Shown here: piece by piece, positions 55,479 through 60,749 of the stretch
Layout of the letters: every line of letters starts with the position of its first letter
Numbering within the stretch: the stretch's first letter is position 1
Assembly: GCF_002104995.1 (NCBI RefSeq)
Contig: NW_024468254.1
Span: 744,001-808,000 of the forward strand
Direction of reading: 5' to 3'
DNA from: Linderina pennispora
Taxonomy: Eukaryota > Kickxellomycota > Kickxellomycetes > Kickxellales > Kickxellaceae
Length of the DNA: 64,000 nucleotides
Notes under the pieces: generated by a model
Seen by the model: only the letters and a program-made list of their open reading frames with translations
What the model was told of the DNA's origin: nothing
The model's database searches: none
Translations under genes and position numbers: made by a program

Positions 55479-56359
55479 ATGGGCTGTATAGCCTGCATAG
55501 CCAACTATACTTTCAATACATCCAACAAAGGAGAACCAGAGGTGCTTGCTTGTGGCAGATGTTTCTTGAGCGGCGATTTGACGCAACATGCTTCTAGGAC
55601 TTGGTCCAGAGATCCAGCTTGGCGGGTATTTTCGGACCATGCAAGCGGATGCCATGGATCATTTGGTTGCAATTTTAGAACTGATTGACATGGCTGCTGG
55701 TGCGTAAATTGGCACCAAGATTGACTCTGCGCATACCTGACAACTAAACATAGACAACATGTGATATCCTTCTTGTATATTTGAGGATATCATTTTGCTT
55801 GGCAGGCAGCGAAGCATGGAACAGTTCAAAGGAAACTGAGTCATGCTGTGGTGATCACACCACAGTCACTCAAGGCCAATACTTTTGCGACCCAGCCGAT
55901 CACAGATGGTGAGACCGATTCATCACCCAGGCTAGGCCATAAGAGTTAGGACTATAAAGTAGACACCGGACCACTCTAGGGGTAACCCGGGTAGGAGCCA
56001 TCTCTTCTTGTTTAATAATATTAATTGCCCCTATTAATTGATTTGTGCCTGGACGATTAGACGAAGCTCGTGACCCTTAAGTAGGATCGCGACAATGCCA
56101 AGATTGGCACTTTTTGGTATGCAGTGCATCTTTTCATTTTATGATATCAGAATTCCATCTTCACCACGATACTCTTGAGGCGAGATAGACGTTTCTACCA
56201 GCATCGCATGTCAGGCGATGTATAAATAAGCTAGACGCGACACCAGAGTATTCCCCGTTTCCATCAACAACTACATCTCACTCTAGCGTCTACACTTGCA
56301 TCTGAATCACCAAATGCATCAACTCCACAAACACAACACCAACTTTCAAATTTAAAACA
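55479..56359. other. Gene-free stretch before secreted repeat protein
   Basis: 881 AT-rich bases. TATAAATA at 56221-56228 lies about 139 bp before the next ATG. No other feature supported. Confidence 0.4.
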
Positions 56360-57235
56360 ATGGGCACCATCATTTCTGCCCCACTTGTCCTCTGTGTCGC
56401 ACTTGCTGCTGCAGCTCCCATCAACCACGCACCTAACCACCAATCGAAAAGTCAGCCTGTCGTCCACCACACCTCGTCTGCTCCCCACTATGCCTATTCT
56501 TCTACCCTTAGTGGTCACCATCTGTATTCTACCACCTACCGCCATTTCGGCGCTATCCCTACTCCTTGGTCGTACCATTTACAAAACAGGATCAATGTCC
56601 GCCAGGTCGCTGAAGATGATATTGCCGAAGATGATATGAGCACCGATGCCTCTGAGGATACCCAAGATGCCGACTCTCTTCCTGATGATATCGAAAGCAA
56701 TGATATGGCATCTGTTGACAATGTCAACCCCAATGGTGATTCTCTCAATGGCTCAGTTGAGGACACCACCTCCTCAGCCACCTCACAAAAGGAACATGAC
56801 AAGAGCGGCAAAAAGAATGACAAGAAACACGACAAGGGCCATAGCAAGAAGAAGGGGAATGACAAGAAGGCTCCTCAGCCTGCCGAGGACGAGACTGAAG
56901 GTGCCAGCGAAGATGCCGATATCCCTGTCGATACTGAATCCTTCTCTGATATCTTTGGCGAGGCGGATATGGCCTCTGATACCTTTGACATCGATTCTGT
57001 TGAGAGTACGCCTGAAAACGCTACTGAAGATCCCACTTCATCAGCTACCTCACACAAGAAGCACCGCAAGGGCAAGAAGGGTCATGGCAAGAAAAGGCAT
57101 GGCAAGAAAAGGCATGGCAAGAAAAGGCATGGCAAGAAGCATAGAAAGGGAGACGGAAAGGGCAAGAAGGCTCGTCAGATTGGCGAAGACTGTGTTGGAT
57201 GCCACGGCTTCCTCTTCACCGATCACACGGGGTAA
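56360..57235 (+). CDS. Secreted acidic/basic repeat protein of unknown function
   Basis: 291 residues starting with a signal peptide (APLVLCVALAAAAP). The mature protein has a His/Ser/Tyr-rich segment, then two copies of one module: an Asp/Glu-rich stretch, a TSSATS linker and a Lys/His-rich stretch. In the second copy the basic part is a tandem KRHGK array encoded by a 15-bp repeat. The end, RQIGEDCVGCHGFLF, holds the only two Cys of the mature protein. RQVAED, QPAEDE and RQIGED recur at module borders and could be processing sites. No domain is recognised; a wall-associated, metal-binding or effector-like role would be guesswork. Confidence 0.75.
   Translation: MGTIISAPLVLCVALAAAAPINHAPNHQSKSQPVVHHTSSAPHYAYSSTLSGHHLYSTTYRHFGAIPTPWSYHLQNRINVRQVAEDDIAEDDMSTDASEDTQDADSLPDDIESNDMASVDNVNPNGDSLNGSVEDTTSSATSQKEHDKSGKKNDKKHDKGHSKKKGNDKKAPQPAEDETEGASEDADIPVDTESFSDIFGEADMASDTFDIDSVESTPENATEDPTSSATSHKKHRKGKKGHGKKRHGKKRHGKKRHGKKHRKGDGKGKKARQIGEDCVGCHGFLFTDHTG
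57083..57127 (+). repeat. 15-bp tandem repeat in secreted protein gene
   Basis: CATGGCAAGAAAAGG repeated exactly three times, with a partial fourth copy. It encodes the repeating HGKKR unit. Confidence 0.9.
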
Positions 57236-57860
57236 TATGCGAAAATATCTTTACCTATATATAAGATTTTATAGTCCAAAAAGCGTCCGACCGTCCGCTA
57301 GAACCTTTTGAATTGGTTAAAAAAAAAACTCTTAAGCTTCAACACGGGTTTGAGTGACTTGCTCTGTAAACTCCTTTTGATCTTGTGCGGCATCTGACCT
57401 CACCGGTGAAACCAGGGTGACGAGTTGTTATTGTAGTGGTCACAGGTCTCTACTGGATATCTCCATTGGTTCAGCGCAAGAGCAGCTCTCAGTATCGGTC
57501 GACCTGATAACTTCTATGGCGTCATCATGGTGGTCATCACCGGCTGCGCAACACCCTTAGGATATTCATTCATGAGCACCTATTGAATAAGGCCATATAG
57601 CTCTTCTGGTGGTTATGCAATATTTGTGGGTTTATTTTATAAGTTAATTTGTCTTATGAACATGCGTAAGCGGTAGTATTTGGGTCACAACGGACCCAGT
57701 ATGTATAGACTGATTCAAGAGACTATATCAGTGCTAAGGGCCCCAAGAACCATGCAAGCCAGAAAATCTTTAATAAAAAGTTCTTAATGCTATGCACACG
57801 CAATAAAGCAAAACTGAACAGCATCATTTCTCTTCTTACTTTGCCTATTGGATTTCTCAA
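57236..57860. other. Left flank of the Fanzor gene
   Basis: 625 AT-rich bases with no ORF of interest. It should contain the promoter and possibly the left end of the mobile element; I could not define a terminal repeat. Confidence 0.4.
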
Positions 57861-60457
57861 ATGGATATTATCCGCAGCACTACTGTCATAAAGACATCAC
57901 TTGGTGGTATTGGCTTCCGTGATTCTATGTTGCCCCGCCTAGAGCAATTTGTACACAGCGTCAATATCATCAAAGAGCATACATACATGCTTGCACGATG
58001 GATATTACTCCATCAACTAGCTGACGATGATGCCTTTGACCCTGCAATATTTGTGAAAAAGGGGTTTTTTCGTTCCATTTATTTATTTATTTATCGCAAC
58101 CTGAAGGTGAAGACTGTCATATCTGCCGAGGATTTCGTCAACCGGAAGGACAGGTCAGAACTGTCGAGCGCAGATTTCGGTGATGTAGTTAGATACCATA
58201 TTTATGATTATCTATTACATAATGGCGATATCGAGCTACATGGCATATGCGACATGAATCAAGTAGCAACATACGTGGATACCAAGCTGATGACAGCATA
58301 CAAGAGCAACATTGTGTTGCACTATGGCAGTTGCCTACAGCAGATTCTGGCCAAATTGATTGATATTCGCAGCCGCAAAACCACACTGCACAGTACAATG
58401 GGCAATGTGTCCAAGGCTGAGTTCAATAATGCATGCCAAGTGTGTATTTATACACCTGCACAGAAGCTCCGCCAGGCAGTTGCCTCTAGGCACCCTGATC
58501 TCAGTGTGCTCACCCCACCGATGCTTGCAATCTACAACAAGCTGGCACCAGTCCTTAATGCCTATGATGCCAAGTACAGATTCGCCAAAGACAGCCGATA
58601 CTATGATGCCAAGGTAAATCCACTTAAGCATCTGCATGCATACATTCGCCTATGCCAGCTTATTGAGAATGAGCAGCTTGGCAAGTCTCCCCCCAATGCT
58701 TGCCTCTGCAGACATCATGGATCCCAGGCCATGTGCGCTTAGACAAGCAAATAATCAAGCAGGTGTTTGTTTCGAAAACACGTGAGGAGGTTACCAAGAT
58801 CAACGCAGCAAAGAGGGCAGCAACAGAGGCAAGGAAAGCAGCAGAAAAGGGCGAAAAATTGGCCAAGAAGGCTGCACGCGAAGCAGCGAAGATGCCATCA
58901 GATGAAACAGAGGCCACTGCAGCAACTGCAGCAGTAGTGGCTGATTCACTTGCTGCTGCATCGGCGGCAGCAGCAGACACTGTTGCAGCACTTAACAATG
59001 CATATGCATCAGCACCCCCAGTCTGTGCACACGACCCGGTCCAAGGGATCACACAACCTGTGTGGGATGTATGGGGCCGGGTCGCAGATCTAACATCAAA
59101 GCCATTTAAGGCGCATGGTGATAGAAAATTCCACGGAATGGCGACAACAGATGGTGTAACGATATGCATTCTGTTACAAGACAAGATATCCAAGGCTGAT
59201 GGTGCAGTAGATGCTGATGGTGCAGGAGGCGATGCTGCGGGAGGCGATGCTGCGGGAGGCAATTCTGTGGGAGGCGATGCTACAGGCGATGCTACAGGCG
59301 ATGCTACAGGCGATGCTACAGGCGATGTTGCAGGAGGTGATGCTGTGGGAGGCAGTACTATAGCTGACTGTCGCTATATCCACCAGATCCCAAAGCCAGA
59401 GCTGCAGAATCTGAAAGGCCGCTGTGTATTCATCGATCCAGGTCGGGGCGATTTGCTATACATGATGCACGAAAATAGCAGCAATGGGAAAGAGGGTGAG
59501 AGAATGCTCTACCGCTACACACGGCAGCAGCACAATAAGGAGCTCAAGCTGCGCCACTATGACAGGATTCGTCGGGCTACAAAGGATCAAGTCCCAGAAG
59601 ATGCTGTCCGCAGAGCAGAGGCAGAGCTTTCCAAGCACTGCTGCCGGACCCTTAGCCCAGCAAAATTCCGTGCCTACGTTGCTGCCCGTGCATCTGTGCG
59701 GTGTGTCCTAGCACCATTTTATGCCAACACGATGACAGCGCGAAGGCTACTAGAGCAGCAGCCCACTAAGTCAAACAAGCAGCATCAGAGGCGCTGGAAG
59801 GCCCATCCGGGTGTCGGGACCAGTCCCAAGGTGTACCCGCTTCACCGCAAGCTGCGCCTTGATTCATTCATGAACCAGGCCCGTGCAGACCACAGGCTTG
59901 CCGCGAAACTCCGGAGCAAGTTCGGTCCAGACCCAGTGCTGATCATGGGCAATTGGAGTGCGCCGATGGCCCGGCACCATGCGCCGATTCGTGGCAAGGG
60001 ATGGCGCGACAAGTTCAAGCACCATGGCTTTGAAGTCTATCTGATCGACGAATTCCGGACATCGTCGGTGTGCCCGTTCTGCTGCGATAAGTCACTGCAG
60101 ACATTCCGGCATGTTCCCAATCCGCGGCCCTACCAGAGATCGAAGAACCCAACTGTGAAGTGCCATGGCCTTCTCCGCTGTACAAGCGAGTCATGTAAGC
60201 GGGCCATGGCACAATACAGGCGAGCCTATTCGTCTCGGCTCTTGAACCGCGACCTCGCAGCAGTTCTAAACTTCAGACTCATTTTCCAGTCACTCTGTGA
60301 CTCAGGCAGTATTCCTGAACGGTTCCGTCGCTTTACGGCCATTGCTGCCGATACTTCTGGCACCACCCCTGCAACAAAGAACCCGCGCAAGAGGCGTGCA
60401 GCAGCAGGCGATTCTGTTGCCAGCAGCAGCGAGCCAGCGCTGAAGCACCTACGCTGA
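57861..60457 (+). pseudogene. Fanzor (eukaryotic TnpB-like RNA-guided nuclease), frameshifted
   Basis: Two overlapping frames, 57861-58742 and 58694-60457, form one gene of about 865 residues broken by a missing base at a C6 run (58689-58694). The N-terminal part is the helical recognition lobe, starting TTVIKTSLGG. PLQTSWIPGHVRLD follows the break. Then come a Lys/Ala coiled coil, a Gly/Asp/Ala repeat, and a RuvC core: FIDPGRGDLLYM (RuvC-I Asp), LIMGNWSAP, LIDEFRTSSVCPFC (with the relocated Glu of Fanzors and the first zinc-finger Cys pair), CHGLLRCTSESC and LNRDLAAVLNF (RuvC-III Asp). Proven Fanzors cut DNA guided by an RNA from their own 3' end. No second transposase is nearby. Confidence 0.85.
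59276..59323 (+). repeat. 12-bp minisatellite inside the Fanzor gene
   Basis: GATGCTACAGGC four times exactly, flanked on both sides (59216-59354) by decayed copies. It encodes a GDAT/GDAAG linker just before the RuvC-I strand. Confidence 0.9.
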
Positions 60458-60749
60458 GCAGGCCATCAAGATGGGAGATGTCCATGATCGACATTGCACC
60501 AACAACCATCCGACACGTTCAAATGACCGGTTCGCCGTGATGCCCTTATCGACGTGTCAACCCATGCTGACTAGCAGCCGAGCTCGCATCGCGAGCAGAT
60601 ATTTCTAGTACGTAAATATATTGGCTGGGGAACGTTCAGAGTTTGTGAGCTAGAAACAAGAGGCAAGCGGTATAGTTGGCCTTATTTATAGACTCACCCG
60701 GTGGCTGTGCTGCAACCCACTTGCCACCAGTACGTCCTTTTCAGGTAGC
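60458..60749 (+). ncRNA. Fanzor 3' flank, candidate guide-RNA (omega/f-RNA) region
   Basis: In characterised Fanzors the guide RNA comes from the end of the ORF and the following non-coding DNA. Here the flank has a perfect 6-bp hairpin GCTCGC-ATC-GCGAGC (60582-60596) followed by an AT-rich segment. No transcript evidence; the boundaries are arbitrary. Confidence 0.25.

Follow-up and report, generated by a model that had tools for sequence, protein, structure and literature searches.

The window analyzed here is a stretch of 64,000 nucleotides (nt) of the genome of Linderina pennispora (GCF_002104995.1, contig NW_024468254.1, positions 744,001-808,000, forward strand), and it carries a gene for a Fanzor1, a eukaryotic protein related to the CRISPR nucleases. 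We found that this gene sits in a Helitron-like rolling-circle element, that the element has ends in common with Helitrons encoding a Rep-helicase and is joined to them head to tail at several places of the genome, and that variants shared by several copies of the gene are under purifying selection. The explanation that we consider probable is that the Fanzor1 acts as an RNA-guided nuclease that is directed by the DNA flanking the 3' end of its element and cuts sites from which the element is absent, while the element itself would be moved by the Rep-helicase.

The identification of the encoded protein as a Fanzor1 is supported by homology, predicted fold and conserved catalytic positions. For protein work we used an uninterrupted reference copy, P0001, of which 861 residues were translated from locus L005 (the frame continues for nine more). 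Compared with proven Fanzor1s, P0001 matched PpFz1 at E = 1e-83, SpuFz1 at 5e-36 and GtFz1 at 3e-6, with most of the protein covered. The second reading frame of the window copy (594 amino acids) matched PpFz1 at E = 1e-59 and SpuFz1 at 1e-31; thus, the motifs from which a first-pass annotation, made from the letters alone, had recognized a Fanzor are far beyond chance. All four motifs are present on the forward strand in the order given there, together with the RuvC catalytic residues D521, E726 and D793 and the zinc-ribbon cysteines C733, C736, C769 and C774 (P0001 numbering; conservation was counted in an alignment of 65 proteins):

59429..59452, + strand: RuvC-I motif FIDPGRGD with D521 (D in 62 of 65)
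60047..60082, + strand: DEFRTSSVCPFC, with the RuvC-II glutamate E726 and the first zinc-ribbon cysteine pair, C733 and C736 (E in 63, C733 in 63 and C736 in all 65)
60161..60196, + strand: CHGLLRCTSESC, with the second zinc-ribbon cysteine pair, C769 and C774 (in 64 and 57 of 65, respectively)
60242..60274, + strand: RuvC-III motif LNRDLAAVLNF with D793 (D in 56, N in 8 and a gap in 1 of 65)

The homologue search yielded 81 proteins with residues 655-825 as the query, and a single protein among the best 7999 candidates with the whole protein. The profile for the zinc ribbon of TnpB and relatives (PF07282) scored 10.2 and 15.2 bits, under its cut-off of 26.3, and gave no match in the genome itself, so that it misses these proteins even where the family is abundant. 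An NCBIfam profile search gave no match for the Fanzor protein, and PF26935, which is listed for many relatives, was not matched by P0001 or four relatives in the version of Pfam used. The fold, judged on an alignment-based model, is predicted to be that of the solved Fanzors; the single-sequence model had a predicted local distance difference test (pLDDT) score of 38.6 and was unusable. Eight relatives from Coemansia (P0002, P0004, P0006, P0043, P0060, P0062, P0068 and P0078) have NRN instead of NRD at RuvC-III, a substitution that may be indicative of altered or lost nuclease activity. The Coemansia database proteins P0031 and P0073, perhaps gene-model fusions, combine Fanzor-like sequence with domains of the host (PF01301 and PF21467; a PP2A regulatory subunit, judging by the name).

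An unusual insert before RuvC-I had also been proposed, consisting of two stretches, both of which are real:

58817..59044, + strand: Ala/Lys-rich insert with predicted long helices, at about residues 320-395 of P0001 (from alignment occupancy; helices at 308-344 and 347-380 in the model)
59196..59362, + strand: Gly/Asp/Ala repeat, predicted to be disordered and variable in length among copies (overlapping or broken high-scoring segment pairs at 59216-59363; pLDDT below 50 at residues 452-496)

The Ala/Lys stretch is occupied in five to six of the 65 proteins at residues 320 and 330, and in P0001 alone at residues 340-390 (six sampled positions). The Gly/Asp/Ala stretch lies in a loop that is also filled in 30 to all 65 of the aligned proteins, depending on the position.

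The claim of a protein of about 865 residues at 57861-60457 holds for other copies of the gene and fails for the one in the window, which consists of two overlapping frames, 57807-58742 and 58673-60457, and is not a single open frame because of a frameshift in a C run near position 58690:

57861..58742, + strand: N-terminal part of the Fanzor1, first frame from its ATG (the matching part of P0001 aligns to positions 516-796 of the PpFz1 chain)
58673..60457, + strand: C-terminal part with RuvC and zinc ribbon, second frame from stop to stop (frame change near 58690)

Nine other copies, on contigs C46, C57, C139, C157, C161, C173, C174, C186 and C212, have a single stop-free frame of 860-894 amino acids that matches residues 1-281 of the first frame and then enters the second. 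The frameshifting form of the C tract was detected in at least 14 of 46 copies, using a script pattern that missed some of the other 32. A programmed frameshift or an intron at this position was considered and rejected; slippage suffices, because the tract is a mononucleotide run.

Alignment of the window to the 60 best-scoring loci of the genome (26.17 Mb in 222 contigs) delimited a sharp-ended repeat around the gene. The earlier proposal of a mobile element is thereby supported, and the element can now be assigned to the Helitron-like family:

57248..60608, + strand: Helitron-like element that starts with TC and ends with CTAG, with Fanzor1 as the only gene found (boundaries of blastn repeats against copies, and empty sites of other copies)
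60582..60596, + strand: 3' subterminal hairpin, GCTCGC-ATC-GCGAGC, separated from CTAG by 8 nt in this copy and by 9 nt in most listed copies

No transposase gene was found within the element. It begins with TCTTTACC after a flanking A (57247) and ends with CTAG before a flanking TA (60609-60610). TC stands at most 5' ends of the copies, and the 42 listed 3' ends, which represent 36 distinct flanks, read CTAG in 37 cases, CTGG in three, and ATAG and CCAG in one each, with TA following directly in all 42. The 5' TC, the 3' CTRR and the subterminal hairpin are the end features of Helitron1-type elements. On the 5' side, 46 rows gave 35 usable flanks, of which 32 were distinct; we set apart seven with TCTTTA-type extensions and, by hand, two tandem junctions and one flank nested in a related end. 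The last base of the 22 clean flanks is A in 17, G in three, C in one and T in one. For elements with an extra T, the anchor of the flank was shifted by one base; 15 of 25 flanks end in A if this shift is omitted. The hexamer TCTTTA is repeated just beyond the 5' end of several copies, in Fanzor and Rep elements alike (e.g., C112:1222852-1226694 (L052), C46 (L006), C173 (L047), and the Rep-Helitrons L076 and L077), as if the 5' terminus had been iterated.

Empty sites were searched with 22 pairs of joined flanks; ten pairs led to one clear site and the other 12 to four more host loci, with no clear match across the junction for the remaining 17 pairs. Among six pieces read in this search, L071-L073 matched one flank only and had no 5' flank. 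In the empty paralogs at the five host loci, either host sequence matches the TA of the 3' side or that TA borders a gap; no long duplication is present. The insertion site appears to be approximately A^TA, judging from the final A of 17 of 22 5' flanks, the T after all 42 3' ends and the five gapped empty loci. A DNA transposon of the Mariner-like kind that targets TA and has degenerate ends, like the SpuFz1 element of Spizellomyces, could also account for the invariant TA after the 3' ends, for the ten clean 5' flanks that end in TA and for the empty-site comparison at L091, which fits a TA duplication. We consider it very unlikely that the element is such a transposon instead of a Helitron, because the other 12 clean 5' flanks have endings different from TA, no terminal inverted repeat is visible by eye between the two ends, and matches to both its 5' 80 bp and its 3' hairpin occur in elements coding for Rep and helicase.

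These Rep-helicase elements reside in the same genome. Matches to Helitron_like_N were found at seven places, six of which belong to one close family; PIF1 helicase matches adjoin Rep at five of these six, and none is listed at C112, where the Helitron is shortened. The seventh place (C68:196071-198650) has lower scores and an open frame of 1989 amino acids. The 5' end of the Fanzor element recurs in the family:

57248..57327, + strand: 5' terminal 80 bp common to the Fanzor element and the Rep-helicase Helitrons (93.75% over 80 bp, E = 4e-30)

Five Rep-Helitrons (L067, L074-L077) have 5' ends that are 92.5-93.9% identical to the Fanzor element over its first 77-82 bp, and one Rep-Helitron 3' end has the same CTAG and a related hairpin, GCTTGC-ATC-GCAAGC, with matching changes on both arms. 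It is through these relatives with common ends that the element, which itself has no Rep-helicase, belongs with the Rep-helicase elements.

The Rep-Helitron 3' end, GCAAGCATGAGACTGCTAG, searched with up to two mismatches allowed, has eight matches in the genome, all of them exact, compared to none for a control pattern. All eight run straight into a 5' end of the type described above. Because both families have the 80 bp in common, the junctions were checked further, and the 5' end is that of the Fanzor element in seven of the eight. The Fanzor element itself follows the Rep-Helitron at C1, C23, C212 and, as a derivative, at C112; a match of 153 bp to its end is present at C157:1115020 and C171; and the junction at C157:14422 has a Fanzor copy at the expected distance. 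The junction at C2 is known for eight bases only, hence the count of seven. The helicase match at C212 is split (574439-574975 and 588199-588336), so that this Helitron probably has a later insertion. Given the common 5' end and the head-to-tail joins at several places, movement of the Fanzor element most likely depends on the Rep-helicase that its Helitron relatives in this genome encode.

Two readings of the tandem were weighed. The tandem may be the autonomous unit, i.e., a two-gene Helitron in which Rep-helicase and Fanzor stand head to tail and which gave rise to the solo Fanzor elements and to the derivatives without RuvC; it would then be a counterpart of IS200/IS605, with the nuclease as a retention or drive device and a terminal base that turns ATA into GTA. 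We entertain this possibility tentatively. There is also a substantial chance, although we would not call it probable, that the tandem is not a unit and that Fanzor elements were repeatedly joined to Rep-Helitron 3' ends by insertion or tandem formation. The four tandem Fanzors included in the tree do not form a single clade, and the junctions take at least three forms, as repeated joining would predict; conversely, all eight Rep-Helitron 3' ends that were found are joined in this manner, while many solo Fanzor elements occupy other DNA. The tandem is either old and the source of the solo copies, or it has been formed repeatedly.

Further copies in the same genome occupy about 131 places at least. 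At least 137 rows match the N-terminal frame (with scores for 134 of 322 candidates) and were read as about 131 places; for the C-terminal frame there are at least 101 rows (with scores for 74 of 431 candidates). Among 47 classified patches, 34 contain the middle part, which does not necessarily mean that they are intact, 11 are deletion derivatives and two are of other kinds; as the 60 loci had been taken by best score, this classification is not a census. The derivatives lack the RuvC part; what remains is roughly 1.7 kb on the 5' side and roughly 515 bp at the 3' end, and most junctions lie near 58924 or 58979 and near 60097. Derivatives such as L034, L038, L039 and L060 retain an N-terminal open frame of approximately 296-308 amino acids.

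Selection was analyzed in 32 copies that cover over 80% of the coding sequence. Variants found in a single copy are neutral (244 nonsynonymous, N, and 100 synonymous, S; omega 1.09; ten stops), variants in two to four copies have an omega of 0.51 (83 N, 72 S, one stop), and variants in five or more copies have an omega of 0.30 (44 N, 66 S, no stops). In the C-terminal part, variants present in at least four full copies (35 N, 51 S) deviate from neutrality with p = 5e-8, and singletons have an omega of 0.93 (155 N, 74 S); in the N-terminal part, variants in at least two full copies have an omega of 0.40 (51 N, 57 S; p = 3e-6). Since shared variants are subject to purifying selection and singletons are neutral, a working protein seems to have been retained in the lineages that spread, and copies, once inserted, seem to decay freely. 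The Fanzor probably helps its element to spread, because the gene still bears the mark of selection. If, instead, the Fanzor were a passenger captured by a Helitron, the element would spread only because the Rep-helicase recognizes its ends, and the nuclease would be of no benefit. Both ends are still present in copies without the RuvC half, and the 11 derivatives of this kind among the 47 classified patches (34 counted as full-length, two other) suggest that the ends alone are sufficient for movement. Nevertheless, we regard a mere passenger as unlikely, since omega is 0.51 and 0.30 for the two classes of shared variants, with one stop in total, compared to the neutral singletons with ten stops.

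The proposed action of the Fanzor1 involves the 3' end of the element. Known Fanzors keep the guide RNA at the 3' non-coding end (PMC10432273), and the corresponding region of the element is a candidate for the same role:

60458..60608, + strand: non-coding 3' end and candidate scaffold of the guide RNA (same position as in known Fanzors, PMC10432273; kept in deletion derivatives)

This region contains 15 variable sites, and its tiles from 60518 onward have a diversity of 0.020-0.044, the lowest value (0.020) being that of 60548-60577. RNA from the 3' end of the element would run into the neighboring host DNA, which would serve as the guide, and would be bound by the Fanzor. The guide would start after the TA, so that the bases preceding it would be A-T-A at an empty site and G-T-A at a filled one; the latter follows from the G at which the element ends, and self-cutting would therefore not occur. 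The Fanzor would then cut the matching element-free site with the A-T-A motif beside the guide, and repair from a filled copy would restore or copy the element at the cut. The ATA target motif is a prediction of this scheme, and we infer both the guide RNA and RNA-guided DNA cleavage by this Fanzor. For comparison, the published target-adjacent motif (TAM) of PpFz1 is 5'-ATN-3' (PMC11423790), and the model for TnpB likewise involves cutting of the empty site followed by repair from the filled copy (PMC10432273), with related gene-drive work on IS200/605 (PMC11870625).

Several observations weigh against this explanation. The diversity of the 3' part is not significantly below that of third codon positions (p = 0.70) or of the 5' untranslated part (p = 0.16), minimum-free-energy folding of the 3' non-coding region is no better than that of shuffles (z = -0.71), and Rfam found nothing above the gathering score in this region. 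As for the insertion site, five of the 22 clean 5' flanks lack the final A, and filled and empty sites differ by junction gaps of 2-11 bp in all five host loci (L068-L070, L091-L096), unlike the prediction for a canonical Helitron. The empty paralog has 8, 8 and 11 additional bases at three loci, two to four additional bases in five paralogs of the host repeat of C113, and two fewer bases at one locus, L091, which, as mentioned, also fits a TA duplication. Moreover, A^T is expected from the Helitron Rep alone, and therefore the TA may be a preference of Rep. The remaining points come from a cis/trans comparison with 21 derivatives, 11 of them with a read deletion junction and ten presumed. Variants of the N-terminal part that occur in at least two full copies and are absent from derivatives show no departure from neutrality (16 N, 12 S; omega 0.59; p = 0.22). 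Variants restricted to derivatives and found in at least two of them are mostly synonymous (1 N, 8 S in confirmed derivatives; 14 N, 16 S with the presumed ones included), and such a synonymous bias in derivatives without a full Fanzor weakens a simple cis reading; perhaps these variants were inherited from full-length ancestors. Derivative singletons are shifted upward (87 N, 23 S; omega 1.68; p = 0.02).

The assignment of the Fanzor to an accessory region was not borne out. Large open reading frames of the window, read by eye, are presumably ORC1, CAD/URA2, HSP60 and ARB1, so that the region looks like core genome; a GatA gene was identified by homology search, with GatA of Linderina macrospora as the closest named match (82% identity). 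A host open reading frame with repeats of the HGKKRHGKK type (56306-57235) stops 12 bases upstream of the element, and the insertion thus sits just past its stop codon.

A Fanzor in a non-autonomous Helitron is already known from Chlamydomonas, where CRe-1, CRe-2 and CRe-3 are Helitron2 elements with Fanzor1 (Bao and Jurka 2013, PMC3627910). As in Linderina, Fanzor1 is carried there by a Helitron-type element without Rep that has many copies, internal deletions, and 5' and 3' ends common with verified Helitrons. The CRe elements differ in that they come from an alga and have multi-exon genes, target site duplications of about 7-19 bp in many copies, a T-rich target and 5' truncations (PMC3627910), whereas the Linderina elements have a single-frame gene in intact copies, the approximate A^TA target and head-to-tail joins to Rep-helicase elements. 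SPu-1 and the ghost elements with SpuFz1 also combine a Fanzor element with many shorter relatives that retain the 3' end (PMC10432273), and the CATA TAM of SPu-1 may include its TA target (PMC10432273; putative TA duplications, PMC3627910). In contrast to the Linderina element, SPu-1 has inverted repeats at both ends, with no transposase found between them (PMC10432273); unlike its ghosts, the Linderina derivatives also keep 1.7 kb of the 5' side. PpFz1 of Parasitella parasitica (PDB 9cf0-9cf3) has an FRI domain (PMC11423790), whereas the Linderina protein has the Ala/Lys helical insert and the Gly/Asp/Ala repeat. More generally, Helitron transposases are among those associated with Fanzor1s, with up to hundreds of copies (PMC10711439).

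The likeness to IS200/IS605 (TnpA and TnpB) is that an RNA-guided RuvC nuclease is paired with a single-strand transposase of the HUH type and that nuclease-only elements exist; those systems are bacterial, whereas in Linderina a Fanzor1 is the nuclease and a eukaryotic Rep-helicase its partner. In titles and abstract openings of openly accessible papers, we found no tandem of Rep-helicase and Fanzor, no Linderina Fanzor family and no selection signal of this kind.

The biological role of Fanzors is considered open, and a parallel involving Helitrons has been raised as a possibility (Saito et al. 2023, PMC10432273). The Linderina family offers a direct test of the use of a Fanzor to its host element, because about 131 places in a single genome bring together intact and decayed nucleases, Rep-helicase partners with common ends, paralogous empty sites and a selection signal. 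A concrete prediction follows from it as well, namely an ATA target motif with self-protection through the terminal G of the element. If the tandem is indeed a unit, the two-gene Helitron would be the eukaryotic counterpart of IS200/IS605, in which an HUH transposase works with an RNA-guided nuclease; the nuclease would be a retention or drive device, and the last base of the element, by changing ATA to GTA, would tell self from target.
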